A stretch of DNA of 64,000 nucleotides from [Clostridium] hylemonae DSM 15053 (GCF_008281175.1 NZ_CP036524.1:1116001-1180000); one strand, 5' to 3'; counted from the first letter of the stretch, positions 50,038 through 64,000 are shown. The notes: generated by a model from the letters alone, not told the origin. Translations and numbers: made by a program.

Positions 50038-50871
50038 ATGGGAAGGGTTGACGGAAAAACAGCAGTCATAACAGGAGGAGGCTCCGGATTTGGACAGGCA
50101 TCGGTGCTGACCTTCGCAGGAGAAGGGGCAAACGTAGTCGTAGTTGATATCAGTGAAGCCAATGGCACGCAGGTGACAGAAAAGGTAAAGGCATCCGGCG
50201 GCGAGGCAGTCTTCGTAAAGGCAGACGTGACATCAGAGAAAGACTGGGAAAATGTTCGGGACACTGCGCTGAAAACTTACGGGCAGATAGATATACTTTT
50301 TAACAACGCGGGTATATGTCTGATGCCGGAAAATGCGGATATCGCACATGTCGACATGAGCATATTTGACAGAACTATGGACATAAATGTCAGAGGCGTC
50401 TGGCTTGGTGTAAGAACTATGGCGGAAGAGCTGGTCAAATCAAAAGGGTACATAGTGAATACGGCCTCTGTAGCCGCATTTAAAGGTCCTCTCGGGGCGG
50501 CTGCTTATGCCACATCAAAAGGGGCAGTTGTGGCTATGACATACGCGATCGCCAATGAATTAGGACTCTGGGGTGTGCGCTGCAACTGCATCTCACCGTA
50601 TGCCGCTGACACTCCGATCGGAGCCAATGTACCTGTTGAGATGGTCAGAAAGGCCAGGACCGGTAATCCGCTTTATACAACGATCGACCCGTATGATGTG
50701 GCAAAAACGGCATTGTTTTTGACATCAGGGGAATGCAGATGTATCAACGGTTCCAATTATTTTGTTGATGCGGGCGCTGTGACCATGACTCAGCCTTGCA
50801 GTATAAAAGATTTTGTCGATGCAAATGCAAAGTATTATGAAGGCGCAGAGTGTACACATACATTTGAATGA
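50038..50871 (+). CDS. Short-chain dehydrogenase/reductase (SDR)
   Basis: The 277-residue classical SDR has the cofactor motif TGGGSGFGQ (about residue 12), VVDIS after beta-2 suggesting NAD preference, NNAG, the catalytic Ser in NTASVAA and AYATSKGAV with the Tyr-x3-Lys pair. AAGGAGGAAG precedes the ATG. It is the first gene of the long operon and should oxidise a hydroxyl of the imported compound to a ketone. The substrate is unknown. Confidence 0.9.
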   Translation: MGRVDGKTAVITGGGSGFGQASVLTFAGEGANVVVVDISEANGTQVTEKVKASGGEAVFVKADVTSEKDWENVRDTALKTYGQIDILFNNAGICLMPENADIAHVDMSIFDRTMDINVRGVWLGVRTMAEELVKSKGYIVNTASVAAFKGPLGAAAYATSKGAVVAMTYAIANELGLWGVRCNCISPYAADTPIGANVPVEMVRKARTGNPLYTTIDPYDVAKTALFLTSGECRCINGSNYFVDAGAVTMTQPCSIKDFVDANAKYYEGAECTHTFE

Positions 50872-50891
50872 TGTGCAGAGAGGTGAGACGA

Positions 50892-51344
50892 ATGGGATGT
50901 AAATTTGAACATATCGGTATATTAGTTAAAAACAGGGAACTTGCCGTTACATCGCTTCAGCAGATGCCGGGCGCAGATGAAGCGGTGTATGTGGATAAAA
51001 TGAATTTTGATGAGACATGTGTACAGGTTGGGGCTCCATTTGCAATAAAAGGAGCAAATATAACGGTCGGCGGCGTTGAGTATGAAATCATTGAAGTTGT
51101 CCCGGAGGAAAGCAGAGGCTCGTACATGATGAACCGATTGGCAGAATACGGAGAGGGACTGCATCATATTGCATTTGAATATGATGACCTTGAGGAATTC
51201 AACGAAGCGGCAGAATCACTGATCCGGCAGGGATATATTGTCGGACATAAAGCGAGCATTCCTTTTATGGGAAAGACGGCTCACGTCTATTATCTCGACT
51301 GTCCGTTTGGCGGGCTTACCTATGAGATCAAATGTATGGTTTAG
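50892..51344 (+). CDS. VOC-family (glyoxalase/epimerase fold) protein
   Basis: The 150-residue protein has two vicinal-oxygen-chelate repeats: FEHIGILVKN at the N terminus, YEIIEVVP mid-way, LHHIAFEYDDLEEF and YEIK near the C terminus. The His and Glu residues at these places match the metal ligands of methylmalonyl-CoA epimerase and glyoxalase relatives. ATG 50892 follows GAGGTGAG; the earlier in-frame ATG 50868 overlaps the SDR stop and has no site. It may isomerise or epimerise the keto product of the SDR. Confidence 0.83.
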   Translation: MGCKFEHIGILVKNRELAVTSLQQMPGADEAVYVDKMNFDETCVQVGAPFAIKGANITVGGVEYEIIEVVPEESRGSYMMNRLAEYGEGLHHIAFEYDDLEEFNEAAESLIRQGYIVGHKASIPFMGKTAHVYYLDCPFGGLTYEIKCMV

Positions 51345-51362: not shown

Positions 51363-52325
51363 ATGAAAAAGCGGATACTGAGCAGCGTATTGATGATAGC
51401 TTTGATGACGACTCTTATACTGGGCGGATGCGGGACAAAGTCCGGGGATAAAAAAGAGGATAATACTAAAGATAAAAAACGGACGATCGCATGTATCGTA
51501 GGGAACCAGACGATGGATTTCTTTGTCAACATCTCTAAGGGCGCGCAGGACGCAGCCGGTGAGGGAGACGAAGTGCTGGTCTACTCGTTTGACGATGATG
51601 CAAATAAGCAGAGCCAGATCTTTGAAGACTGTATCACAAAAAAGGTGGATGCTATCCTGACGACCATACTGGACAGCGAGGCTATCATAACGTCGCTTCG
51701 GAAGGCGGAACAGGCGGGTATTCCGGTGATCACAATGGATGCATACCCGGACGGTAAAGGAGTGGAGGATCTGTATGCCGCCGCTGTACTGGATGATTTA
51801 TATCAGGCAGGCCACGACCATGGTGTGGCGTTGTGTGAAGCGATCGGAGGAAAAGGCAAAATCGGCTGGGTATGGTACACCGGAGCAAGTGAAGTGGCAA
51901 AGCAGAGATGTGAAGGCTTTAAAGACGCGGTGGCCGAATATCCGGATGTAGAGATCGTTGCGTACAGCGAAGGCAGCGTTGATACAGAATCATGCCTGAG
52001 TCAGATCAGCGCGCAGCTGCAGAATTACAGTGATCTGGACGCATACTGGGCGCCGTGGGCGAATGCGGGCATGGCAGCGGTCACAGCTCTTGCCTCGGCC
52101 GGAATGTCAGACGTCAGGCTGGCTATCAGTGACTGCAACGAAGACCTTGTAAAATATGTTCTTGACGGGAAGGTGATCGCGCTGATGGACCTGAACGCAA
52201 GGGGAATCGGCGAGAAGGCAATGGAACTGGCCTGCGAATATCTGGACAAAGGGAAAGTCAGCGAACAGATCAATTACGTAGAAGTGATCAATGTAGATGA
52301 ATCCAATATTGCAGATTATCAGTAA
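51363..52325 (+). CDS. Sugar-type ABC transporter substrate-binding lipoprotein
   Basis: This 320-residue RbsB-like lipoprotein has a signal peptide ending LGGC (Cys23). A charged linker precedes the type I periplasmic-binding fold: ACIVGNQTMDFFVNISKGAQDAA, DAILTTILDSEAII, AGIPVITMDAYP and late DLNARGIGEKAMELA. It should capture a sugar, polyol or similar ligand for the ATPase and permease downstream. AGAGGAAA precedes the ATG. A stem between this gene and the ATPase may set unequal expression. Confidence 0.88.
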   Translation: MKKRILSSVLMIALMTTLILGGCGTKSGDKKEDNTKDKKRTIACIVGNQTMDFFVNISKGAQDAAGEGDEVLVYSFDDDANKQSQIFEDCITKKVDAILTTILDSEAIITSLRKAEQAGIPVITMDAYPDGKGVEDLYAAAVLDDLYQAGHDHGVALCEAIGGKGKIGWVWYTGASEVAKQRCEGFKDAVAEYPDVEIVAYSEGSVDTESCLSQISAQLQNYSDLDAYWAPWANAGMAAVTALASAGMSDVRLAISDCNEDLVKYVLDGKVIALMDLNARGIGEKAMELACEYLDKGKVSEQINYVEVINVDESNIADYQ

Positions 52326-52436: not shown

Positions 52437-53960
52437 ATGAATAATGAAAAAACAGTTTTAAAGATGGAACATATAGTAAAATCCTTTTACGGCGTCAATG
52501 TGTTAAAAGATGTGAGTCTGTATTTAAAAGAAGGGGAGATCCAGGCACTTATGGGAGAAAACGGCGCCGGGAAATCTACGCTTATGAAAATATTAGGAGG
52601 CATCTATTCAAAGGACAGCGGTAAGATAACAGTGAATGGGAAAGAAGTTGAGATAAAGACTCCGCTCGCTGCCAGAGAACTGCATATATGTCTCGTACAT
52701 CAGGAGATTTCTCTTGTTCCTCAGCTAAGCATTGCGGATAATATTTTTCTCGGCTCGGAACTGAAGCGGGGACTGCTGGAGGATAAAAAGGCAATGAGGG
52801 AAAAGGCCAGGGAGGCGATAGAGACTCTGGAACTGAGGATTCCTGTCACCACAAAAGTGTACAAGCTGAGCGTAGCGCAGCAGCAACTGGTAGAGATCGC
52901 CAAAGCGCTCGTATTTGATGCGAAGATCATAGTGCTCGATGAACCTACGGCTGCCATATCCGAAAAAGAGGCGGAAAGCTTATTCGTATATTTGAAGAAA
53001 TTAAAAGAAAAAGGAATATCGATCATTTACATATCCCACCGCATGGAAGAAATATTTCGGGTATGCGATTCCATAACCATTATGCGGGACGGGCTTGTTG
53101 TGTCAAATAAAAGGGCAGAGGAAACAGATAAAAGTGAGGTCATATCGGCGATGGTCGGAAGGAGCATAACAGACTTTTTTGGCGATAACCATCCGCAGGG
53201 GACAGAGGATATATTGGAGGTGAAAGGACTAAATAACAGATATTTAAAGAATGTAAGCTTTACCCTGAAAAAAGGCGAGATCCTGGGGTTTGCCGGTCTG
53301 GTCGGAGCGGGGCGGACAGAACTTGCGAGGGCAATATTTGGTCTTGATAAGGCAGACAGCGGCGAAATATTTCTGAATGGGAAGAAGATCAATTGCAGTA
53401 AACCGTATGAGGCCATGAAATGCGGAATAGGGCTGATACCGGAAGACAGAAAGCAGTCAGGACTTTTTTTAGAGAAGTCGATCTCATATAATCTGACGCT
53501 TCTTGTTTTAAGAAAATTCATTAAAGGAATATTTGTGAATGATAAAAAGAGAAATGAGATTATCAGAGAGTATTCAGAAAAGCTGTCCATAAAAATGGCC
53601 GGCGTTGAACAGCATTGCGCACAGTTGTCCGGCGGCAATCAACAGAAAGTGGTTATATCAAAGTGGCTTGCATATGGTCCAAAGGTGCTGATCATGGATG
53701 AACCGACAAGAGGAGTCGATGTCGGTGCAAAAGCAGAAATATATCATTTAATAAACGATCTGGCCAATGAAGGATATTCCATAATCATGATCTCATCAGA
53801 ACTTCCGGAAATCATCAATATGAGCAGCCGGATCGTCGTGATGCACGAAGGAAGAATTACAGGTATCCTCGACGGAAAAGAAACAGAGTTTGTGCAGGAA
53901 GAGATCATGAATTACGCAATTGGAGGTAAAGTTGATGAAAAGTACGAAAACGAAAAATGA
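52437..53960 (+). CDS. Sugar-type ABC transporter ATPase (RbsA-like, two cassettes)
   Basis: The 507-residue protein has two ATPase domains. The first has GENGAGKSTLMKIL (about residue 40), LSVAQQQLVEIAKA and VLDEPTAAIS. The second is degenerate as usual for RbsA: GLVGAGRTELARAIFG (about 288), but with an intact LSGGNQQKVVISKW and MDEPTRGVDVGAK. It overlaps the permease gene by 26 bp. The coding sequence is visibly more AT-rich than the purine island. Confidence 0.92.
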   Translation: MNNEKTVLKMEHIVKSFYGVNVLKDVSLYLKEGEIQALMGENGAGKSTLMKILGGIYSKDSGKITVNGKEVEIKTPLAARELHICLVHQEISLVPQLSIADNIFLGSELKRGLLEDKKAMREKAREAIETLELRIPVTTKVYKLSVAQQQLVEIAKALVFDAKIIVLDEPTAAISEKEAESLFVYLKKLKEKGISIIYISHRMEEIFRVCDSITIMRDGLVVSNKRAEETDKSEVISAMVGRSITDFFGDNHPQGTEDILEVKGLNNRYLKNVSFTLKKGEILGFAGLVGAGRTELARAIFGLDKADSGEIFLNGKKINCSKPYEAMKCGIGLIPEDRKQSGLFLEKSISYNLTLLVLRKFIKGIFVNDKKRNEIIREYSEKLSIKMAGVEQHCAQLSGGNQQKVVISKWLAYGPKVLIMDEPTRGVDVGAKAEIYHLINDLANEGYSIIMISSELPEIINMSSRIVVMHEGRITGILDGKETEFVQEEIMNYAIGGKVDEKYENEK

Positions 53961-54912
53961 AAACAGACTGACTATAATGCTCAAAGATTTTATAAAAACG
54001 AACGGCGGTATCCTTATCGCTCTGGCGGCAATGTTTCTTTTCTTATCTTTTGCAAACCAATACTTTTTCACTTCTAATAATATGGCCAACCTTTTTAATT
54101 ATTTTACTACGAATTGTGTGCTGGCTATGTGTATGATGTGTGTGCTCATCACAGGGGAGATCGATCTGTCTATCAGTTCTTTCGTAGCTTTGAGCGGTAT
54201 TGTGCTCTGTGTTTTCCTGAACCGGGGAATGTCTTTTGGCATATCTTTACTGCTGACCATATTGATCGGCGCCCTGGTGGGGATCCTGACAGGCACGGTC
54301 ATAGCATTTTCAGGAATGCCGTCTTTTATCGTTACATTGGCGATGCAGGGGGTGATCAGAGGCTCTGCATACATAATAAGCGCCGGAGAGAGGATCTCAT
54401 CGGCGGATGAATGGCTTTTTAATCTGACGAGTAAAAGATATCTTGGTGTTCCCCTCCCGACTATTATCATACTCGTCATTGCGGTTCTGCTTGGACTCCT
54501 ATTGTACCGGACTTCCTTTGGGAAGCATATGTACGCCGCCGGCGGCAACCGGGAGGCCGCCATCTATTCCGGAATCAATGTAAAGAAGATCGTGATCGTC
54601 ACGTTTGCCATATCGGGCGCATTGGCCTGTCTCGCAGGCTCCTTTGTTGCTTCCCGGGTGACATCGGGGCAGCCGTCCGCAGGGGCGGGATATGAAGGAG
54701 ACGCGGTTGCCGCGGCAGTATTGGGCGGCACGGCATTTACCGGGGGGAGAGGGACTGTTTCCGGCGTCATAATCGGAGCGCTGGTGATCGGTACACTGAC
54801 AAACGGAATGAATCTGCTGGAGATCAACGCTTATTGGCAGCAGATATGCAAAGGGCTGATCATTATGCTGGCAGTTATGATAGACACTGTAAAACAAAGA
54901 CGCAGTAATTAA
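53935..54912 (+). CDS. Sugar-type ABC transporter permease (RbsC-like)
   Basis: This 325-residue permease of the branched-chain/ribose family has about eight to ten helices, with GEIDLSISSFVALSGIV, SFIVTLAMQGVIRGSAYI, YAAGGNREAAIYSGI and AAVLGGTAFTGGRGTVSG as conserved segments. ATG 53935 lies 8 nt after GGAGG and overlaps the ATPase gene; the 53920 frame start is upstream of that site. It completes the importer with the two genes before it and is followed at once by the TIM-barrel genes. Confidence 0.92.
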   Translation: MKSTKTKNENRLTIMLKDFIKTNGGILIALAAMFLFLSFANQYFFTSNNMANLFNYFTTNCVLAMCMMCVLITGEIDLSISSFVALSGIVLCVFLNRGMSFGISLLLTILIGALVGILTGTVIAFSGMPSFIVTLAMQGVIRGSAYIISAGERISSADEWLFNLTSKRYLGVPLPTIIILVIAVLLGLLLYRTSFGKHMYAAGGNREAAIYSGINVKKIVIVTFAISGALACLAGSFVASRVTSGQPSAGAGYEGDAVAAAVLGGTAFTGGRGTVSGVIIGALVIGTLTNGMNLLEINAYWQQICKGLIIMLAVMIDTVKQRRSN

Positions 54913-54929: not shown

Positions 54930-55763
54930 ATGACAGACCATTTAAAAAACAGAGCGGCACAGCACAAATTTATTTTAGGAGTGAGTGCGGGGATACCGCT
55001 GACTGCTAAAATAGCGCATGGTGCGGGAGCTGACTTTATCGTTACACATAAAGAGGAGATATTTGGCGCCGACGGCAGAATGCCGGTAATAGCCAGGACA
55101 GGTTATGGCGGCAACTGCAATGAGATCATAATGGAGCAGGCTGACAGATATGTGTCAGCTGCGGGGGATACGCCCGTCTTTGCAGGCATAGGTCCGGCAG
55201 AACCATATACAAATGTAGATCGTTTTACAGAAAAGCTCCTGGAAAAGGGAGTTACCGGCATTACAAACTATCCTACGGCAGGGGGATGGGTCGGCTCCTA
55301 TGGAAACGGCATACAGATGGCGGGAGTCGGCTATTCCCTGGAAGTAGATTATCTCAGAAGATGGAGCAGAAAAGGTGTTCCCGCCATCGGATATTGCTTT
55401 AATACGGAGCAGATAAAACAGATGACAGATGCAGGTGTAGAAATATTGAGTCTTTATATTCCGAGAACTGAAAAAGAAACGCACGGGTGGGACGATGCCC
55501 CTTCGGCGGAAAAAGCGGCGGAGGCGGCGGCAGAATTAGTTGAGACAGCCAGAAGAGAGAATAAAAACAGTGTCATATTGTGCAGCGGAGGTACGATCCG
55601 TCGGATCTCAGATATACATAATTACCTTAAGAGCGCCGCGGCTGACGGGTATATCTGTGATGAGTCAGTAGAATGTGCGGCGATAGACAGAGCGGTTTCG
55701 GAGACGGTAGGCGGATACAGAAGACTGGAGACCTGCCTGCGGCGTGAAGGAGGACAGAGATGA
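54930..55763 (+). CDS. TIM-barrel 'phosphoenolpyruvate hydrolase'-family protein, paralog 1
   Basis: The 277-residue protein is the first of six paralogs related to the C-terminal TIM-barrel half of plant Tm-1. Family landmarks are ILGVSAGIPLTAKIAHGAGAD near the start (beta-1/helix-1), GYGGNCNEI, FAGIGPAEPYTNVD, GITNYPTAGGWVG and, near the C terminus, CSGGTIRRISDI in place of the usual CHGGP. AGGAGG precedes the ATG. It directly follows the ABC permease and overlaps the next paralog. Its enzymatic role is unproven; the family name derives from weak similarity. Confidence 0.8.
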   Translation: MTDHLKNRAAQHKFILGVSAGIPLTAKIAHGAGADFIVTHKEEIFGADGRMPVIARTGYGGNCNEIIMEQADRYVSAAGDTPVFAGIGPAEPYTNVDRFTEKLLEKGVTGITNYPTAGGWVGSYGNGIQMAGVGYSLEVDYLRRWSRKGVPAIGYCFNTEQIKQMTDAGVEILSLYIPRTEKETHGWDDAPSAEKAAEAAAELVETARRENKNSVILCSGGTIRRISDIHNYLKSAAADGYICDESVECAAIDRAVSETVGGYRRLETCLRREGGQR

Positions 55764-56539
55764 AAAGATATTCAAGAGAAGAAATCATGGATCATTTACA
55801 GCAAAGAATAAAAAACCGGGAGCCGATAATAGCCTGCGGCGCCGGCACAGGACTATACGCCAGGGCGGCAGAACGGGAAAATGCAGACTTCATTCTGGCG
55901 GGGGCAAGATCCAAAGCACTCGTAAATGGTCTGGCCGCAGAAGAGTGTGTATTTCCTTTTCACGATGTAAATGAGGTATCCTGTGAACTTGCAAAACATC
56001 TGCTTCCTGTGATAAACAGAACTCCTGTGATAGCGGGGATTGGGGCTTACAATCCATATCTGGATGCAGGGCGGCTCATACATAATATAAAAAAACTTGG
56101 ATACAGCGGTGTGATCAACAGTCCGGGCAGCGGCGCGTACGCAGTCCAGCTTAAGCAGAACTGCTTTCAGAAGGAAATAGAGCTGATCGTTAAGGCAAGG
56201 GAAGAAAATGTTTTTTCCATGGCGGTGGTGAGAACGACAAAAGATATTGCATGTATGTGCGAGGCAGGAGCGGATGTGATCGTAATTCAATGTCAGGAAA
56301 CGGCAGAGGACTGTGAAGAATATATAAGTTACCAGAGCCGGCTTGCCAGAAGCGCATATGAACTCAGTAAAGAACTCATTGTACTTGCGGATATTGGTAA
56401 TCTGACAAATGAGAAAGAAATACAGAGGCTGTTAACGGAGACGAAGGCGGCAGGAATCGTCAGCGAGGAGGCGGTGGAGAGTCTGGCAGTGCAGAAAGAA
56501 ATGTCAAAAGTGCTGAGGGAAATCATGAATGTTCAGTAG
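55760..56539 (+). CDS. TIM-barrel 'phosphoenolpyruvate hydrolase'-family protein, paralog 2 (divergent)
   Basis: This 259-residue paralog is the shortest and most divergent. It keeps ACGAGTGLYARAAERENAD, PFHDVNEV (where others have an NCN motif), IAGIGAYNPYLDAG and GVINSPGSGA. However, its C-terminal loop reads ADIGNLTNEKEI, lacking the H-G-G-P motif of paralogs 3, 4 and 6. It may therefore be non-catalytic or act on another substrate, perhaps as a partner subunit. It overlaps paralog 1 by 4 bp (ATGA) and is followed 18 nt later by paralog 3. Confidence 0.75.
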   Translation: MKRYSREEIMDHLQQRIKNREPIIACGAGTGLYARAAERENADFILAGARSKALVNGLAAEECVFPFHDVNEVSCELAKHLLPVINRTPVIAGIGAYNPYLDAGRLIHNIKKLGYSGVINSPGSGAYAVQLKQNCFQKEIELIVKAREENVFSMAVVRTTKDIACMCEAGADVIVIQCQETAEDCEEYISYQSRLARSAYELSKELIVLADIGNLTNEKEIQRLLTETKAAGIVSEEAVESLAVQKEMSKVLREIMNVQ

Positions 56540-56557
56540 AAAGTGAGGAAAATGTGT

Positions 56558-57391
56558 ATGGGAAGTAAATTTACCAGACAGGAAGTCTTAGACAGATTAA
56601 ATAGAAAGAGAGCAGAGAAAAAACCGATAATCATCGGGGCGGGAGGCGTTGGGCTGATTGCCAAAGCCGCGGATAAAGCAGGAATAGACATTATAATGTC
56701 ATACTGCACAGGACCTGTCAGGATGAACGGCAATGCGGGGCAGCTGGGGTATATGCAGTATGTCGACTGTAACGGGATCTCTCTTGAGATGGGACACAAG
56801 ATAATCGGCCGTGTAAAAGACACTCCGATGGTGGCAGGGATCGGAGTGGGCGATCCATACAGGGATATAGACGATCTCATCGATGAACTGACCGGCATCG
56901 GATATTCCGGGATCACAAACGTTCCGACACTGGGAGGTCATTCCGGCGCGCTGCGCAAGAGCATGGAGAGGGAAGGAATCGGATTTAACGGTGAGGTAAA
57001 GCTTATACAGAAATGCCGCGGTAAAAATATATTTACGATCGCTTATGCATTTGACGAAGAGCAGGTAAAAGCTATGGTACAGGCCGGGACGGACATTATA
57101 TGTCCCCACGTAGGCGTCACACGTGATAAAGCATTTGATTTCAATGTACTTACAGTAGAGCAGGCGGCGGAAAAGATCAATCGTCTCTATGACGTGGCTG
57201 TAAAAGAAAACCCTGATGTGATCGTGGCATGCCATGGCGGGCCATTTGCAGATCCGGAGTCGGTGCAGAAAGGCTTCAGACTCACAAAAGCGGATGCCTT
57301 CGTAGGGGCGTCCACAGTGGAGCGGATACCGACGGAGGAAGCGATCTATGAGGTTGTAAAAGAATTTAGTTCACTGACGCTTGGGAAATAG
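56558..57391 (+). CDS. TIM-barrel 'phosphoenolpyruvate hydrolase'-family protein, paralog 3
   Basis: The 277-residue protein is a canonical member: GAGGVGLIAKAADKAGID, YCTGPVRMNG, YVDCNGI, VAGIGVGDPYRDID, GITNVPTLGGHSG, IAYAFDEEQVKAMVQAGTD and VACHGGPFADPESV. It is closest to paralog 4. ATG 56558 is preferred because GTGAGGA lies about 9 nt upstream; ATG 56552 is too close to it. It is followed by a Tm-1-like ATP-binding gene, reproducing as separate genes the two halves of Tm-1 proteins. Confidence 0.85.
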   Translation: MGSKFTRQEVLDRLNRKRAEKKPIIIGAGGVGLIAKAADKAGIDIIMSYCTGPVRMNGNAGQLGYMQYVDCNGISLEMGHKIIGRVKDTPMVAGIGVGDPYRDIDDLIDELTGIGYSGITNVPTLGGHSGALRKSMEREGIGFNGEVKLIQKCRGKNIFTIAYAFDEEQVKAMVQAGTDIICPHVGVTRDKAFDFNVLTVEQAAEKINRLYDVAVKENPDVIVACHGGPFADPESVQKGFRLTKADAFVGASTVERIPTEEAIYEVVKEFSSLTLGK

Positions 57392-57406
57392 CAGAGAGGA
57401 TTGCGG

Positions 57407-58621
57407 ATGGAGACAATAGCAGTGATCGGAGCTTTTGATACGAAGGGAACGGAATTTGAATATCTGCGGAAAAAAATAGAAGAATATGGCGCCGGCACTC
57501 TTATGATAGATGTCGGAGTGCTGGGGGAGCCTGAGTTTTGCCCGGATGTTGCGGCGGCGGAGGTGGCTTATTTATCCGGGGAGAAACTGGAAAGTCTCAG
57601 AAGACAGAGGAACCGGAAAAAGGCTAATGATGCTATGATACGCGGTATAAAGGCCCTGGTTAAAAAGCTGTATAAAGAAAATAGGATTCAAGGTGCAGTC
57701 TCTATGGGAGGCGGTCAGGGGACACATGTGGCTGCCGCTGCAATGTCTGTTCTGCCGGCCGGGTTTCCGAAAGTGATTCTCTCGACCGTGGCAACCGTGC
57801 CGCACGCACAGTCTCACTTTGAAAATATAAACGATACGATGGTAATGAATTCTCTTGTGGATATACAAGGGCTCAATTACCTTTTGCGGACTGTCATCCG
57901 GGAAACGGCGGCAGCCATTGCCGGGCTGGCCAGACATGCAGAAGAACCTTGTAAGACAGAAAAAGAAAAACGTATTGCCATGTCCATGTTCGGGATAACG
58001 ACGCCGTGCGTAAGCCGAATACAAAAAAGGCTGGAAAAGAGCGGCTGCGAAGTCCTTGTATTTCACACGACGGGAATGGGCGGCCGGCTGATGGAAAAGA
58101 CGATCCAGGAAGGCCATATCGACGGAGTCGTCGACGTGACGCTTGGGGAGATAACATCAGATGTCTTCGGACTCCCGGGCGGAGCGGGCAAAGAACGGCT
58201 CTGCGCCGCGGGAAAAAAGGGAATTCCACAAATTGTGATTCCGGGCGCTATGGATGTGCTGAATTTTATGCCCCCCGAATCCATGCCCCAGGCATATAAA
58301 GACCGCAAATATCTGATGCATAATGAGGACTTAAAAGTGGTGAGGACGAATGCGGAAGAAAACAAGATCCTGGGGGAAGAGACAGCCAGAAGACTGAACA
58401 GTTCATCCGGGAAAACAGCGGTTATTTTTCCGCTCAGAGGGCTGTCTTCCAATGATCAGGAAGGAAAAGAGTTTTATTCACCGGAAGCCGACCGGGAGTT
58501 ATTTGATGCCATTAGAACAAATCTGAAGCCGGGAATAAGAGTCATAGAGTTGGACTGTCATATAAATGATCCTGAATTTGCCGACTTTATCGCTGATTTT
58601 ATGGTGGAGGAAATGCTATGA
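57407..58621 (+). CDS. Tm-1-like ATP-binding (UPF0261) protein, copy 1
   Basis: This 404-residue protein is related to the N-terminal half of plant Tm-1, which binds ATP. Motifs are AVIGAFDTKGTEFEYLR (residues 4-20), SMGGGQGTHVAAAAM (about 106), FGITTPCVSRIQKRLE, IPGAMDVLNFMPPES, EDLKVVRTNAEEN and FPLRGLSSNDQEGKEF near the C terminus. AGAGGA lies 6 nt before ATG 57407. Its stop overlaps the start of paralog 4 (ATGA), so the pair is translationally coupled. Bacterial function is unknown; the conserved glycine-rich and Arg-Glu-rich motifs suggest nucleotide-dependent chemistry on a small molecule. Confidence 0.88.
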   Translation: METIAVIGAFDTKGTEFEYLRKKIEEYGAGTLMIDVGVLGEPEFCPDVAAAEVAYLSGEKLESLRRQRNRKKANDAMIRGIKALVKKLYKENRIQGAVSMGGGQGTHVAAAAMSVLPAGFPKVILSTVATVPHAQSHFENINDTMVMNSLVDIQGLNYLLRTVIRETAAAIAGLARHAEEPCKTEKEKRIAMSMFGITTPCVSRIQKRLEKSGCEVLVFHTTGMGGRLMEKTIQEGHIDGVVDVTLGEITSDVFGLPGGAGKERLCAAGKKGIPQIVIPGAMDVLNFMPPESMPQAYKDRKYLMHNEDLKVVRTNAEENKILGEETARRLNSSSGKTAVIFPLRGLSSNDQEGKEFYSPEADRELFDAIRTNLKPGIRVIELDCHINDPEFADFIADFMVEEML

Positions 58622-59460
58622 AACAAATGGAAAGGAAAGAGATCCTGAAGCGGCTCACTCTAAAAATAAAGGCCGGGAAACCGGTCATTGCCGGAGGCGC
58701 AGGCCTCGGCATCGTCGCCAAAATGCAGGAAACGGCCGGAATAGACATGATCATGGCGTACAATACAGGCCCTTACCGTATGGATGGTGTACCGTCCTTT
58801 GTCGGTCATATGCCGTACGGGAACTGCAACCGTGTAACCTTAGAGCTGGTTGATATACTGGCGAACCGTCTGACGGACACTCCTGTCATCGCCGGGGCAG
58901 GCGCAGGCGATCCGTTTCTGGATATACCGTATCATATTGAAACGCTGTGCCGCCGCGGAGCGTCCGGAATAACAAACGTGCCCACCGTGGGAGGGAAGAA
59001 AGCAGGAGCACTTAAGGGACCTGTGAGGGACGATATGGAATGGAACGGATTCGGATTTAAAAGAGAAGCCGAGATGATCCGGTACTGCAGAAAAAGAGAC
59101 ATTTTCAGTGTTGCTTATGCATTTGACGAAGAGCAGGTGAGAACGCTTGTACAGGCAGGGACAGATATTATAGCGCCCCATGTCGGCGGGACGGCAGGAG
59201 GCATGACCGGATTTGAAGCCGTATCCGTCGAGGAGGCGGCAGATAAGATCCAACGCATGTATATGGCGGCGGTGCAGGAGAATCCGGATATTATCGTTTT
59301 ATGCCATGGGGGTCCGCTCAAAGACGCAAAAACAGTGGAAGAGTGTATGAAACTTACAGACATACACGGATTTATCGGAACGTCGGCGCTGGAAAGAATA
59401 CCTGTTGAAAATGAACTGACTAAGATCGTCAGCGCATTTAAAGCGACACATCTGCGGTGA
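58618..59460 (+). CDS. TIM-barrel 'phosphoenolpyruvate hydrolase'-family protein, paralog 4
   Basis: The 280-residue canonical member has GGAGLGIVAKMQETAGID, YNTGPYRMDGVPS, YGNCNRV, IAGAGAGDPFLDI, GITNVPTVGGKKAG, VAYAFDEEQVRTLVQAGTD, HVGGTAGG and LCHGGPLKDAKTV. Compared with paralog 3 it has an extra HVGGTAGG segment that paralog 5 shares. GGAGG precedes the ATG, which overlaps the Tm-1-like stop by 4 bp. Confidence 0.87.
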   Translation: MKQMERKEILKRLTLKIKAGKPVIAGGAGLGIVAKMQETAGIDMIMAYNTGPYRMDGVPSFVGHMPYGNCNRVTLELVDILANRLTDTPVIAGAGAGDPFLDIPYHIETLCRRGASGITNVPTVGGKKAGALKGPVRDDMEWNGFGFKREAEMIRYCRKRDIFSVAYAFDEEQVRTLVQAGTDIIAPHVGGTAGGMTGFEAVSVEEAADKIQRMYMAAVQENPDIIVLCHGGPLKDAKTVEECMKLTDIHGFIGTSALERIPVENELTKIVSAFKATHLR

Positions 59461-59471
59461 GGAGGACATAT

Positions 59472-60302
59472 ATGAGACAGTATGCAAGAGAGGAACTTAT
59501 ACAGTCATTACAAAGTAAGATCAGAAAGAAGGAACCGGTCATAGCAAGCGGAGCAGGAGCGGGGATCGTTGCATCGGCCGGTGAAAAGGCCGGCCTGGAT
59601 CTGCTCATCATATATAGCACAGGACTGTTCCGTCAGGCCGGAGCACCGCTTCTGACTACGATGCTGCCCTACGGCAACTGTAATGATATCGTTTCTGCAC
59701 TTGGCAAAAAAGTGATTTTCCGGACCGTGGACATACCTGTTATCGGAGCGATCGGGGCGGCGGACCCTTTCAAAAGCTGGGATCTGATCATTGACGGACT
59801 GCAGGAGACAGGGTTCTCCGGTATGATCAATTATCCCGTGTTTACAGGAATCGACGGTTTTGCCGATGATTTGGAGGATTCCGGGATCGGATTTTCGAGA
59901 AATGTAAACTTGATACGAAAATGCAGAGAGCGGGATTTCTTCAGCGCCTCGTTTGCTTTTGAGGAAGCTCAGGCTGAAATGCTGGCGGCTGCAGGGGCAG
60001 ACATGATTTGCGCCATGGTTGGAGGGACTGCGGGGGGAACAAATGCGATTAAAGAAAACAAAGTGCGCTCCATGGAGGAAAGCTGCAGGATCATACAGAA
60101 CATTTATGAGGCTGCCACATCAGTAAATCCGGATATCATCGTCACATGCCGCGGCGGTCCGATCGTAGAGCCGAAGGATCTGCAGTGCTGCTTCGATAAT
60201 ACGGATGTACAGGGGTTTATCGGGGGCTCCAGTATCGAACGGATCCCGGTGGAGCGCGCGGTCTTTCATGCAACAGAAGAATTTCTTGGCATTAACGCAT
60301 AA
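59472..60302 (+). CDS. TIM-barrel 'phosphoenolpyruvate hydrolase'-family protein, paralog 5
   Basis: This 276-residue member has SGAGAGIVASAGEKAGLD, YSTGLFRQAGAP, YGNCNDI, IGAIGAADPFKSWD, GMINYPVFTGIDG, MVGGTAGGTNAI and TCRGGPIVEPKDL. The His of the CHGGP loop is replaced by Arg, which may alter catalysis. ATG 59472 follows GAGGAGG; the annotatable GTG at 59457 lies inside the previous gene. The order with paralogs 4 and 6 suggests successive tandem duplication and divergence. Confidence 0.84.
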   Translation: MRQYAREELIQSLQSKIRKKEPVIASGAGAGIVASAGEKAGLDLLIIYSTGLFRQAGAPLLTTMLPYGNCNDIVSALGKKVIFRTVDIPVIGAIGAADPFKSWDLIIDGLQETGFSGMINYPVFTGIDGFADDLEDSGIGFSRNVNLIRKCRERDFFSASFAFEEAQAEMLAAAGADMICAMVGGTAGGTNAIKENKVRSMEESCRIIQNIYEAATSVNPDIIVTCRGGPIVEPKDLQCCFDNTDVQGFIGGSSIERIPVERAVFHATEEFLGINA

Positions 60303-60317
60303 GTTGGGAGGACGTGG

Positions 60318-61142
60318 ATGGGAAAGCGAAGAATTGATATAAGAAGGAGGATGTCTGAGAGAATAAAAAGGCATCGTCCTGTACAGGGCGTCTGTGTGAG
60401 CTGCGGCCTGACAGCCAGGGCAGCTGAAAAAGCGGGAGCAGACTTTCTCGTTACATATGCCGGGGCGATGTTCCGGCGCGAAGGGGTGCCGGCCAGTCTC
60501 TGTGAGCTGTGCTATGACGACTGCAATACAGTGACGGAAGAGCTGGGAAGCCACATACTGCCTCGTTTAAAAGATATTCCGCTTATCGGAGGCATCGGGT
60601 GTCTGGATCCTTACAGAGACGTTGGACAGTTTATCGATCATCTTATTGCGAAAGGATTTTCAGGCGTGGCAAATCTTCCGAGTATAGGGGACTGGGAAGG
60701 CGATTACCGGACAATGCCCGAACAGCTCCATATGGGATATGAAAAAGAGATCGAGCTGATAAGAACGTGCCGCGGGCGGGATATCTTCACCCTTGCCAAC
60801 TGCTATACAGAAGAACAGGCAGTAAAAATGACCGAGGCCGGAGCGGATATGATCTGCATAGATATGGGCGCTACACAGGGAGGTCTTTTACAGTCGTCCT
60901 GTATTGTGACTTGCACAGAGGCTGCTGAAAAGATCAGTAAAATTGCGGATTGTGTACATGCGTGCGGGGAATCTCCGTTTATCCTATTTCACGGGGGACC
61001 CTTTGCAGAACCGGTGGATATGAACGTGTGTCTGCAAGGCGGCGCGGTCCACGGTGTATTAAATGGTTCGGCAGCAGAGCGGATACCAGTTGAAAGAGCA
61101 GTGATGGATACAGTTGCGCAGGTCGGCGCGCTGCGTCTTTGA
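60318..61142 (+). CDS. TIM-barrel 'phosphoenolpyruvate hydrolase'-family protein, paralog 6
   Basis: The 274-residue protein resembles the prototype TIM-barrel half of Tm-1 in its DCNTVTEELG, GGIGCLDPYRDVGQF and NLPSIGDWEGDYR motifs. It begins KRHRPVQGVCVSCGLTARAAEK and ends its barrel with LFHGGPFAEPVDM. GMGATQGG here replaces HVGGTAGG. TGGGAGGA precedes the ATG. It is followed 28 nt later by the second Tm-1-like gene, so again a barrel gene is paired with an ATP-binding gene. Confidence 0.85.
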   Translation: MGKRRIDIRRRMSERIKRHRPVQGVCVSCGLTARAAEKAGADFLVTYAGAMFRREGVPASLCELCYDDCNTVTEELGSHILPRLKDIPLIGGIGCLDPYRDVGQFIDHLIAKGFSGVANLPSIGDWEGDYRTMPEQLHMGYEKEIELIRTCRGRDIFTLANCYTEEQAVKMTEAGADMICIDMGATQGGLLQSSCIVTCTEAAEKISKIADCVHACGESPFILFHGGPFAEPVDMNVCLQGGAVHGVLNGSAAERIPVERAVMDTVAQVGALRL

Positions 61143-61170: not shown

Positions 61171-62385
61171 ATGAAGACAGTTGCAGTTATCGGTGCGCTC
61201 GACACGAAGAGTGATGAATTTCTATACTTAAAGACAAGGATCGAACAGGAAGACGTCCGTACCATCATGGTGGACACCGGCATTCTCGGAAGCCCCAAAT
61301 TCCGCCCGGACATAAGCGCGGCAATGGTGGCCCGTGAGGCAGGGGAGGACCTGGAGGAGATGCGCCGGGAGCAGTCCCGGCAGAAGTCCAACGACACTAT
61401 GCTGAAAGGGGCGGGTCTCATCATCCGCCGTCTGTACGGCGAAGGGAAGATAGACGGAGCGGTCACGATGGGCGGAGGCCGGGGAACGATCGTAGGGGGA
61501 GAAGTGATGCGGAGCCTCCCTGTGGGGTTCCCGAAAGTCTTGGTTTCCACCCAGGCCACAAACAGCTATGCCCAGCATATGTTCGAAGGGATCAATGACA
61601 CCTTTGTCATCAATTCTCTTGTGGATATCTCCGGTTTGAATGAGATATTGAAGATGGTCATGGATAAGGCGGCGGTCACGATAGCTGCTATGGTGAAAAT
61701 GGAGCAGGCCGCGCTTAAAAAGACGAGGCCGAGAATCGCCATGAGCATGCTCGGCATCACGACCCCGTGTGTGTCCGCAGTGCAGCGGAGGCTTGAGCAG
61801 GCCGGCTTTGAGACGCTCGTTTTTCACAGCAACGGACTTGGCGGAACCTGCATGGAGAAGATGATACGGCAGGGATGGATCGACGGCGCTGCAGATATTA
61901 CGACGGCGGAACTGACGCCGGGCGAACTGGGAGGCATAGGTTATGCCGGGCCAGAGCGCCTTACCGGGGCGGCCGATATGGGGATCCCGCAGGTCATAGT
62001 GCCGGGGGCGATGGATATCATTGACTTTGCGCCGCCGGAGTCTGTCCCGGAAAAGTATTTGAACCGGAGATACGTCATGCACGTCTCTGCGCTGAAAGTC
62101 GTGAGGACGTCGGCAGAAGAAAACAGGCATATGGGAAAGCTTATGGCAGAAAAGCTGAATCAGTCCCGGGGAAAAGTTGTGGTGGCCTTTCCGATGAGAG
62201 GGCTGTCCGCCAATGATCATGAGGGAGCCGCGTTCTACGACCGGGAGGCAGATATGGCGCTGCTTGAGACGCTGGAGAGAAACTTAAGAGAGGATATACC
62301 GGTCTGTAAATATGACTTCCACATCAACGATGAGGCATTTGCGGAGGAAGTGGCAAAACTTGTCCTAAACGTAATGCGGCGGTAA
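61171..62385 (+). CDS. Tm-1-like ATP-binding (UPF0261) protein, copy 2
   Basis: This 404-residue paralog of the gene at 57407 has the same length and motif order: AVIGALDTKSDEFLYLK, TMGGGRGTIVGGEVM, LGITTPCVSAVQRRLE, VPGAMDIIDFAPPES, ALKVVRTSAEENRHMG and FPMRGLSANDHEGAAF. By eye about half the aligned C-terminal residues are identical. AAGGAAG lies upstream of the ATG. It ends the catabolic gene series and is followed 67 nt later by the second GntR gene. Having two such proteins in one operon suggests two related ATP-dependent steps or a heteromeric complex. Confidence 0.88.
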   Translation: MKTVAVIGALDTKSDEFLYLKTRIEQEDVRTIMVDTGILGSPKFRPDISAAMVAREAGEDLEEMRREQSRQKSNDTMLKGAGLIIRRLYGEGKIDGAVTMGGGRGTIVGGEVMRSLPVGFPKVLVSTQATNSYAQHMFEGINDTFVINSLVDISGLNEILKMVMDKAAVTIAAMVKMEQAALKKTRPRIAMSMLGITTPCVSAVQRRLEQAGFETLVFHSNGLGGTCMEKMIRQGWIDGAADITTAELTPGELGGIGYAGPERLTGAADMGIPQVIVPGAMDIIDFAPPESVPEKYLNRRYVMHVSALKVVRTSAEENRHMGKLMAEKLNQSRGKVVVAFPMRGLSANDHEGAAFYDREADMALLETLERNLREDIPVCKYDFHINDEAFAEEVAKLVLNVMRR

Positions 62386-62452: not shown

Positions 62453-63217
62453 ATGGCGAACAAAAAAAGGAGTCAGTCTCTGTATTTTAAGATCAAAGAC
62501 GATTTGAAGGAACAGATCATTTCCAGGCAGCTGAAGGCAGATGACCGCATCATGTCAGAGGCGGAGATATGCGAGCATTATAAGGTGAGCAGGATCACGG
62601 CGAAGAGGGCGCTGGACGAACTTATGTGGGAAGGTTATATCACGAGGAAACCGGGGAAGGGCAGTTTTGTCACTTACCATGCGATCGAACATCTGCTGAA
62701 CGGCTTCTACAGTATCAGTGAGGAGATACGCAGAAACGGTCTGATACCGTCGGTAAAGCTTTTGGAGTTCCTCGTCCTCAAGGTGGAAGATACGGTCGTA
62801 TCGGAGGAACTAAAAGCAAGACTTGGGCTGTCGGGCAGTGACGGTGTGTATTATATAAGAAGACTCAGGCTCGCCAGTGACGAGATCATAGCACTGGAGA
62901 CGTCCTACATTCCGGCGCAGGATTTCCCGGGTCTTGTAGAGACAGACCTGCAGAGAGGAGCAGCGCTCTATGCAGTGCTGCAGGCGAGATATGGCTGTGA
63001 ACCGGACAGAAGCCAGGAGTTGTTTTCCGCCCATATGGTGAGCAAGAAGGAAGCGCAGGCGCTCGGCGTCCGCCCGGAATCTGCGGCGCTGAAGGTCGTG
63101 AGGATATCCTACGCGGCCGACAGGCCCGTGGAATATACGGAACGGCTCTTCCGGGGCGACACATATACCTATAAGGTAGAACTTAAAAAACACAAGACGG
63201 CCGGTGAAAACGAATAG
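62453..63217 (+). CDS. GntR-family regulator with UTRA domain (HutC subfamily), copy 2
   Basis: The 254-residue regulator is a clear paralog of the one at 47692. It has LYFKIKDDLKEQIISRQLKADDRI, ICEHYKVSRITAKRALDEL and KPGKGSFV in the helix-turn-helix, then a UTRA domain ending with AADRPVEYTERLFRGDTYTY. GGGGAGAAAG precedes the ATG. Two ATGGAAA repeats lie about 45-65 nt upstream. The two related regulators bracket the whole locus and may read different intermediates or compete for the same operators. Confidence 0.88.
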   Translation: MANKKRSQSLYFKIKDDLKEQIISRQLKADDRIMSEAEICEHYKVSRITAKRALDELMWEGYITRKPGKGSFVTYHAIEHLLNGFYSISEEIRRNGLIPSVKLLEFLVLKVEDTVVSEELKARLGLSGSDGVYYIRRLRLASDEIIALETSYIPAQDFPGLVETDLQRGAALYAVLQARYGCEPDRSQELFSAHMVSKKEAQALGVRPESAALKVVRISYAADRPVEYTERLFRGDTYTYKVELKKHKTAGENE

Positions 63218-63268: not shown

Positions 63269-63310
63269 TTGGAACGTATACGGCAGAACATTTAAAGAGA
63301 AGGAGCAGTG

Positions 63311-64000
63311 ATGGAATATATGAAAACAAATAAAATCGTTATAGGAAACTGGAAAATGAATAAGAGTATCCGGGAATCAGCCGCTTGCGCAAAGGAACTG
63401 CTGGACGCAAGGTATGATCTTACTTCTGTTAAAAGTACGGACATCGTATTGACGCCGTCTTTTCTGGCATTAAATGAAGTAAAGAAGGTATGCGCAGGAA
63501 GAAACGGCATCTCGCTCGGAGCGCAGGACGTGTACTGGGGGACGGGAAATTACTGCGGCGCTGTCTCAGCCAAAATGCTGTCGGAGGTGTGCAGTTACGC
63601 GTTCGCCGGGCATTCCGAGCGGCGGATGCATTTTAATGACACGGATGAGATCGTAAACCGGAAGGTGAAGGCATGTATCGAAGCAGGCATCACGCCGATC
63701 TTCTGCATCGGCGAAGATGAAGAGGCAAACAACGCCGGAAAGACGAAAGAAGTTATCAGGCGTCAGATAGAGTCAGGTCTTGCGGGGGTGAGACCGTGTG
63801 AGATGGTCGTACTCTATGAGCCGGTGTGGGCTCTGGGCACGGGAAGGACTCCATGTACAGAGGATACAGAGGAAATCATGCGCTTTGTGAGAGAGATTCT
63901 TCATGAGCTGTTCGGCGCCGGGGCAGGCAGGGGGATAAGGGCGGTATATGCAGGGAGCGTCCGCCCGGAAAATGCGGCCGCATATGCGCGCCTGCCGCAT
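63311..64000 (+). CDS. tpiA: Triosephosphate isomerase (3' truncated by window end)
   Basis: The frame starting at ATG 63311 (AAGGAGCAG upstream) runs to the window end, 230 codons of an expected 250 or so. GNWKMNKS near the N terminus has the active-site Asn and Lys. FAGHSERR carries the electrophilic His (canonical members have LGHSERR), YEPVWALGTGR the catalytic Glu and flexible loop 6, and YAGSVRPENA the phosphate-binding segment. It lies alone after a terminator rather than in a gap-pgk-tpi operon, so it may be an extra copy or a relative that isomerises another ketose phosphate such as a tetrulose phosphate. Confidence 0.85.
   Translation, partial: MEYMKTNKIVIGNWKMNKSIRESAACAKELLDARYDLTSVKSTDIVLTPSFLALNEVKKVCAGRNGISLGAQDVYWGTGNYCGAVSAKMLSEVCSYAFAGHSERRMHFNDTDEIVNRKVKACIEAGITPIFCIGEDEEANNAGKTKEVIRRQIESGLAGVRPCEMVVLYEPVWALGTGRTPCTEDTEEIMRFVREILHELFGAGAGRGIRAVYAGSVRPENAAAYARLPH

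Follow-up and report, generated by a model that had tools for sequence, protein, structure and literature searches.

Why should a bacterium keep six divergent copies of one barrel protein within a single operon? The question is raised by a 64,000-nucleotide stretch of the [Clostridium] hylemonae DSM 15053 genome (GCF_008281175.1, NZ_CP036524.1:1116001-1180000; hereafter the window), in which six members of the triosephosphate isomerase (TIM)-barrel family PF09370 (PEP_hydrolase/TBST), here p1 to p6 in gene order, are packed into 6.2 kb and accompanied by two UPF0261 genes, U1 and U2. With moderate confidence, we read the cluster as an old PF09370 radiation in which p3 and p4 are catalytic, while p1 and p2, and perhaps partly p5 and p6, have been retained as non-catalytic partners working with U1 and U2. 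The operon takes a known, biochemically uncharacterised module to an extreme, and it is unusual in degree.

Graded loss of invariant residues

All six copies were full length and scored far above the curated cut-off of PF09370 (148-268 bits vs. 33.8), and they were the only matches to the family in the whole 3.83-Mb genome. PF05853 (BKACE), our initial guess for the family, had no match in the genome and was dropped. Pairwise identities among the copies ranged from 22 to 47%, and an alignment of the six rows diverged too much to support a pattern scan. A preliminary description of the locus had listed their C-terminal loops (CSGGT in p1, ADIGN in p2, CHGGP in both p3 and p4, CRGGP in p5 and FHGGP in p6), and these readings proved exact to the letter; the "N-C-N or equivalent" motif that it reported was likewise found in every copy, as GNCN in p1, p4 and p5, HDVN in p2, VDCN in p3 and DDCN in p6. 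Its G-x-G/A-x-x-x-P-[FY] segment holds for five copies, the version in p5 opening with A, and the six paralogs that it called adjacent are indeed members of one family, but U1 separates p3 from p4.

To place the copies on a common scale, we used the 99 alignment columns with at least 95% invariance among 76 canonical PF09370 members, which themselves keep 89-99 of these columns. The counts fell from 61 in p4, 55 in p5 and 53 in p3 to 46 in p6, 37 in p1 and 32 in p2. In the numbering of the solved family member 2p10, the residues D105, H190 and H233 occur together in p3 and p4 only; the substitutions are H190M and H233R in p5, H190D in p6, D105E, H190Y and H233S in p1, and D105N, H190Q and H233D in p2. 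Residues N78, N127 and D50 are kept in all six. The set of canonical 2p10-type motifs (YNSGR, D105, H190, H233 and GASSxER) is complete in no copy: p3 and p4 keep the three single residues without SGR, and p1 and p2 have lost nearly all the motifs. The six copies belong to PF09370 and stand outside its canonical subfamily. CHGGP is the ancestral motif of the family, not a new variant.

Structure models (AlphaFold, AF2) were made as monomers for p3 and p2 of the six copies. The p3 model was a complete barrel (predicted local distance difference test, pLDDT, 92.8; Z 38.2 and 1.6 Å against 2p10), and the barrel of p2 was also intact (pLDDT 87.3; Z 34.6 and 1.9 Å). In p3, CHGGP (residues 230-234) starts within the last residues of beta7 (227-231) and extends into the next loop. 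Beta1 is followed by the glycine-rich loop, beta2 by YCTGPVR, beta3 by GDP, beta4 by N126-P128, beta6 by H189-x-G-x-T and beta8 by GASTVER. In the model all these motifs lie on the C-terminal face of the barrel, the face on which TIM barrels carry their active sites. The preliminary description would have been undermined by a variable loop remote from any pocket; in the two models, superposed on 2p10, the loop is predicted to form the turn after beta-strand 7 on this catalytic face. The next structural neighbours were 4ml9 (Z 22.0), an uncharacterised barrel carrying a phosphate site, and the phosphonopyruvate hydrolase 2dua (Z 19.5).

Selection on the copies was studied by comparison with the sister species. 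The ratio of nonsynonymous to synonymous substitution rates (dN/dS) was 0.024 for p3, 0.107 for p1 and 0.118 for p2, with upper bootstrap bounds of 0.163 for p1 and 0.177 for p2; the absolute values are rough, as the synonymous sites are near saturation. Of the three comparable copies p3 was the slowest evolving, and by these ratios p1 and p2 are intact and under purifying selection, approximately five times less tightly than p3. The loop has drifted between the sisters from CSGGT to CSGAT or the reverse in p1 and between ADIGN and ADVGY in p2, with CHGGP unchanged in p3. The loss of candidate residues, the intact frames and the dN/dS well below 1 suggest that p1 and p2 are pseudoenzyme-like. 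Division of labour and the retention of pseudoenzymes, both raised in the preliminary description, gain support from this graded decay of invariant residues under purifying selection, and the same pattern speaks, as had been argued, against simple gene dosage.

Age and loss of the copies

In a family tree of 55 rows, p1-p6 were placed in one 11-row clade (support 100/96) together with three orthologues from the sister species and one copy each from two further loci, L056 and L057. The order within the clade was weak and several branches were long. A forced clade of the window and sister copies alone was not rejected and not favoured (p-AU, approximately unbiased test, 0.056), and some of the duplications may predate the split from L056 and L057. 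Because the copies share only 22-47% identity yet form one supported clade, the sequences indicate an old, lineage-specific radiation. The tree thus agrees with the earlier view of a local family, as opposed to copies taken up independently from unrelated sources.

The sister species (G085) carries the same operon, with identities of 78% for p1, 70% for p2, 93% for p3, 77% for U1 and 86% for U2, and p4-p6 are missing. Its U1-U2 spacer passes gap-free into p6 tail sequence, where 6 of 11 codons agree in register; 5 of 200,000 shuffles gave as much peptide agreement, and the other paralogs gave at most four matches. A shuffle test of the same tail on the DNA only fell short of significance in the coding part, and the inferred loss of p6 in the sister rests on the in-register peptide test and on a separate relic in a third species. 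There (G150; L036:10711-11206), the operon is deleted except for a 49-residue C-terminal fragment of p6, which has kept FHGGP and is 71% identical to the p6 of the window over 52 residues; at the same genomic site, the relic is followed by pieces of a broken triosephosphate isomerase gene. A fourth genome of the genus had no PF09370 copy. Given the tail, the relic and the genome without copies, sequence comparison dates at least p6 to before the splits of three species of the genus and shows a cluster that is shrinking; p4 and p5 are presumably ancestral as well. The word "expansion" used at first is therefore misleading, the copies being old and the cluster being lost in sister species. The sister has retained p1, p2, p3, U1 and U2 while dropping p4-p6, and p1 and p2 therefore appear to be worth keeping.

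Competing explanations

Under the explanation that we prefer, the TBST half of a UPF0261-TBST module would have radiated inside a substrate-uptake and catabolic operon. The catalytic barrel sites would most likely be those of p3 and p4; p1, p2 and perhaps partly p5 and p6 would have lost the ancestral site and would act within a complex with U1/U2 and the active copies, which they would shape, hold or regulate. The substrate would be an intermediate, phosphorylated or ATP-activated, that derives from an imported sugar or polyol. We consider unlikely a more specific version, in which a single large hetero-oligomer is built from up to six different TIM-barrel subunits together with two ATP-binding UPF0261 subunits, catalysis falls to one or two of the barrels and the rest are positional pseudoenzymes. 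Several observations weigh against the preferred explanation. D105, H190 and H233 are candidate catalytic residues nominated by their invariance; p3 and p4 have Y[CN]TGP for YNSGR and keep 53-61 of the 99 columns, and even the "active" copies may have shifted chemistry. By the column count, p5 is slightly more canonical than p3 (55 vs. 53). Finally, the substituted columns of p1 and p2 are conserved between the sisters in 82 and 77% of cases, compared with 73 and 63% elsewhere, which would fit a new function too.

This partial conservation also favours substrate diversification, in which every copy is an active enzyme of distinct specificity and the altered loops reflect new specificities and not lost sites. 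The presence of N78, N127 and D50 in all copies and the intact barrel of the two modelled ones point the same way, and a single transporter could bring in a mixture. However, p1 and p2 have been stripped of almost all polar residues on the catalytic face, those of both the beta7 and the beta8 loop included, their loop letters differ even between sisters, and the block has a single transporter and a single regulator; we regard diversification as possible but rather doubtful. If the array were instead an old set of duplicates on its way out, with p1, p2, p5 and p6 lingering with little function, the absence of p4-p6 in one sister, the p6 fragment and broken triosephosphate isomerase gene in another and the empty fourth genome would all be expected, as would the roughly fivefold faster evolution of p1 and p2 relative to p3. 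A dN/dS far below 1 in p1 and p2, even at the upper bounds, and frames intact in both species are hard to reconcile with such decay, as is the survival of p1 and p2 in the very sister that lacks p4-p6, and we find this account distinctly unlikely.

The remaining alternatives concern the origin of the copies. That six unrelated family members were acquired independently and gathered in one operon has a precedent of sorts in L056, whose two PF09370 copies sit on different branches, and the strict window-plus-sister clade was not favoured; with all six copies in the 11-row clade, where the only outsiders are the L056 and L057 sequences, it is nevertheless improbable. Simple gene dosage through recent tandem amplification would account for the tight packing of the six genes, but their divergence already refutes a recent amplification, p6 is older than the split of three species, and the active-site loops are not alike. 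We give it hardly any credence.

Operon setting and known systems

The UPF0261 and TBST families strongly co-evolve and mostly occur in one copy each per genome, at 1:1 in most bacterial genomes (PMC5028733). The standard layout, one PF09370 gene adjoining one UPF0261 gene, prevailed among 80 named loci from many phyla. In the window, UPF0261 also lies beside TBST genes, U1 and U2 being interleaved with them, but the copy ratio is six to two instead of the one to one that is customary for the module without strictly defining it. UPF0261, absent from the preliminary description, is the likely partner of the PF09370 copies. A survey of ~1,700 genomes, drawn from genus to phylum level in overlapping draws, gave a maximum of six PF09370 genes; most genomes had one to three, and the next highest count, five, came from a fragmented genome with partial copies. 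Smaller multicopy layouts (P, PF09370; U, UPF0261) were P-U-P in L056, L094 and L102, P-P-U-P in G133, P-P-U in G688 and U-P-P in L131, with one conserved and one divergent PF09370 copy recurring around a single UPF0261 in L094, L102 and G133. The literature searched contained no biochemical reaction for the module and no data on hydrolysis of phosphonopyruvate or PEP by the family, whose hydrolase name comes from annotation.

Features of the operon in the window, in gene order.
Feature	Coordinates	Strand	Family or type	Remarks
Short-chain dehydrogenase (SDR)	50038..50871	+	PF13561/PF00106	Same syntenic block
VOC/glyoxalase-like protein	50868..51344	+	PF13669	
Periplasmic binding protein, sugar type	51363..52325	+	PF13407	
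ABC transporter ATPase, sugar type	52437..53960	+	PF00005, two stretches	
ABC transporter permease, sugar type	53920..54912	+	PF02653	
p1	54930..55763	+	PF09370 TIM-barrel paralog, Pfam E 1.6e-48	Loop CSGGT 55581-55595; catalytic-face motifs lost
p2	55760..56539	+	PF09370, Pfam E 4e-43	Loop ADIGN 56387-56401; the furthest degenerated, with a shorter beta6-alpha6 loop
p3	56543..57391	+	PF09370, Pfam E 2e-77	Loop CHGGP 57230-57244; likely catalytic
U1	57401..58621	+	UPF0261/Tm-1 N-terminal-like, ATP-binding type; PF06792 + PF23189	Usual PF09370 partner; between p3 and p4
p4	58618..59460	+	PF09370, Pfam E 1.6e-79	Loop CHGGP 59302-59316; likely catalytic
p5	59457..60302	+	PF09370, Pfam E 7e-80	Loop CRGGP 60147-60161; intermediate
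p6	60318..61142	+	PF09370, Pfam E 3.4e-71	Loop FHGGP 60987-61001; intermediate
U2	61171..62385	+	Second UPF0261 protein	After p6
GntR-UTRA regulator	62453..63217	+	PF00392, PF07702	
Triosephosphate isomerase paralog	63308..64000, past window end to 64084	+	PF00121	

From p1 to U2 the genes are joined by 4-base overlaps or by gaps of at most ~28 bases, and these tight junctions suggest translational coupling. Translation of p5 probably begins with the ATG at ~59472, directly after a ribosome-binding-like GGAGG, and not with the GTG at 59457. U1 and U2, the only UPF0261 genes of the genome, are 51% identical and form a clade (SH-aLRT, Shimodaira-Hasegawa-like approximate likelihood ratio test, 97); U1 matched the Tm-1 N-terminal structures 3wrw and 3wry. 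A solved "UPF0261 domain-containing protein" is deposited as PDB 9mpy, on which the literature searched held no paper.

Elsewhere in the block, the SDR is 91% identical to its counterpart in the sister (L029) and 44% to that in L056, and homologues of the VOC protein are present in L056 and L035. The triosephosphate isomerase gene is probably a dedicated copy, as it is the third and weakest-scoring of three in the genome. Together with the transporter, the SDR and the GntR-UTRA regulator, it points to a sugar-like compound taken up by the cell, or the phosphorylated form made from it, as the probable substrate of the module. Links to the erythritol and isoapionate pathways were considered, since RuBisCO-like, TIM-like and RpiB-like genes occur at some distant PF09370 loci, but we claim no pathway: no RpiB or RuBisCO-like gene was found near the operon, the RuBisCO-like proteins score below every curated cut-off, and the triosephosphate isomerase of the operon is a generic paralog.

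Other PF09370 loci have settings of their own. A distinct Clostridia branch of PF09370 and UPF0261 occurs alongside a RuBisCO-like protein (L033, L034, L037 and L165), three of these loci (L033, L037 and L165) adding TIM-like and RpiB-like genes; this hints at a sugar-acid pathway that is still uncharacterised. L030, L102 and L130 also have RuBisCO-like genes nearby. A second type of PF09370 gene (L031, L032, L039 and many others) has a frame of ~400-650 amino acids, with the barrel and further sequence, and stands beside a canonical UPF0261-PF09370 pair; it is perhaps a regulator that senses the pathway ligand. At 18 loci, a small cupin-like protein of ~138 amino acids is encoded close to the PF09370 gene and in the same orientation (e.g., L065:10832-11248).

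The closest solved relative, Mll9387 of Mesorhizobium loti (2p10, "putative phosphonopyruvate hydrolase"), is a PF09370 member (phmmer E 1.6e-45 to p3) that shares with the window family the same barrel, [CS]HGGP, D-P, H-x-G-x-T and G-A-S-x-x-E-R. It is of the canonical one-copy type with a full YNSGR, whereas the copies of the window have 32-61 of the 99 columns. The PEP mutase/isocitrate lyase superfamily, to which 2dua belongs, shares the general fold, but 2dua superposes at 3.3 Å with 16% identity, and the sequence-profile search gave a single member of that superfamily, methylisocitrate lyase 3eoo, at a marginal E of 0.22. Among operons, the P-U-P locus L056 of an uncultured Lachnospiraceae (metagenome-assembled genome, CANQGL010000005.1) is similar in its SDR, sugar ABC transporter, VOC, UPF0261 and window-clade PF09370 genes; unlike the window, it has a single UPF0261 gene and two PF09370 genes, of which one belongs to the window clade and the other is near canonical.

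The UPF0261-TBST module ranges over many bacteria, archaea, fungi and land plants, where it includes the tomato virus-resistance protein Tm-1. Plant Tm-1 and Tm-1-like proteins combine the same two domain families in one fused protein, whereas the window has them unfused in a transporter operon, as two UPF0261 and six TBST genes. With near-canonical and degenerate barrels sorted by selection and a natural deletion series in its sisters, the operon points to the residues of importance and is a compact system in which to look for the reaction of the module and its partner interface. For the pseudoenzyme-like copies, an analogy in the way of working is PDX1.2, a TIM-barrel paralog of its active partner PDX1.3 with which it is known to assemble. 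The families are not homologous. In Arabidopsis, PDX1.2 is a non-catalytic pseudoenzyme that regulates vitamin B6 synthesis (PMC6829848).

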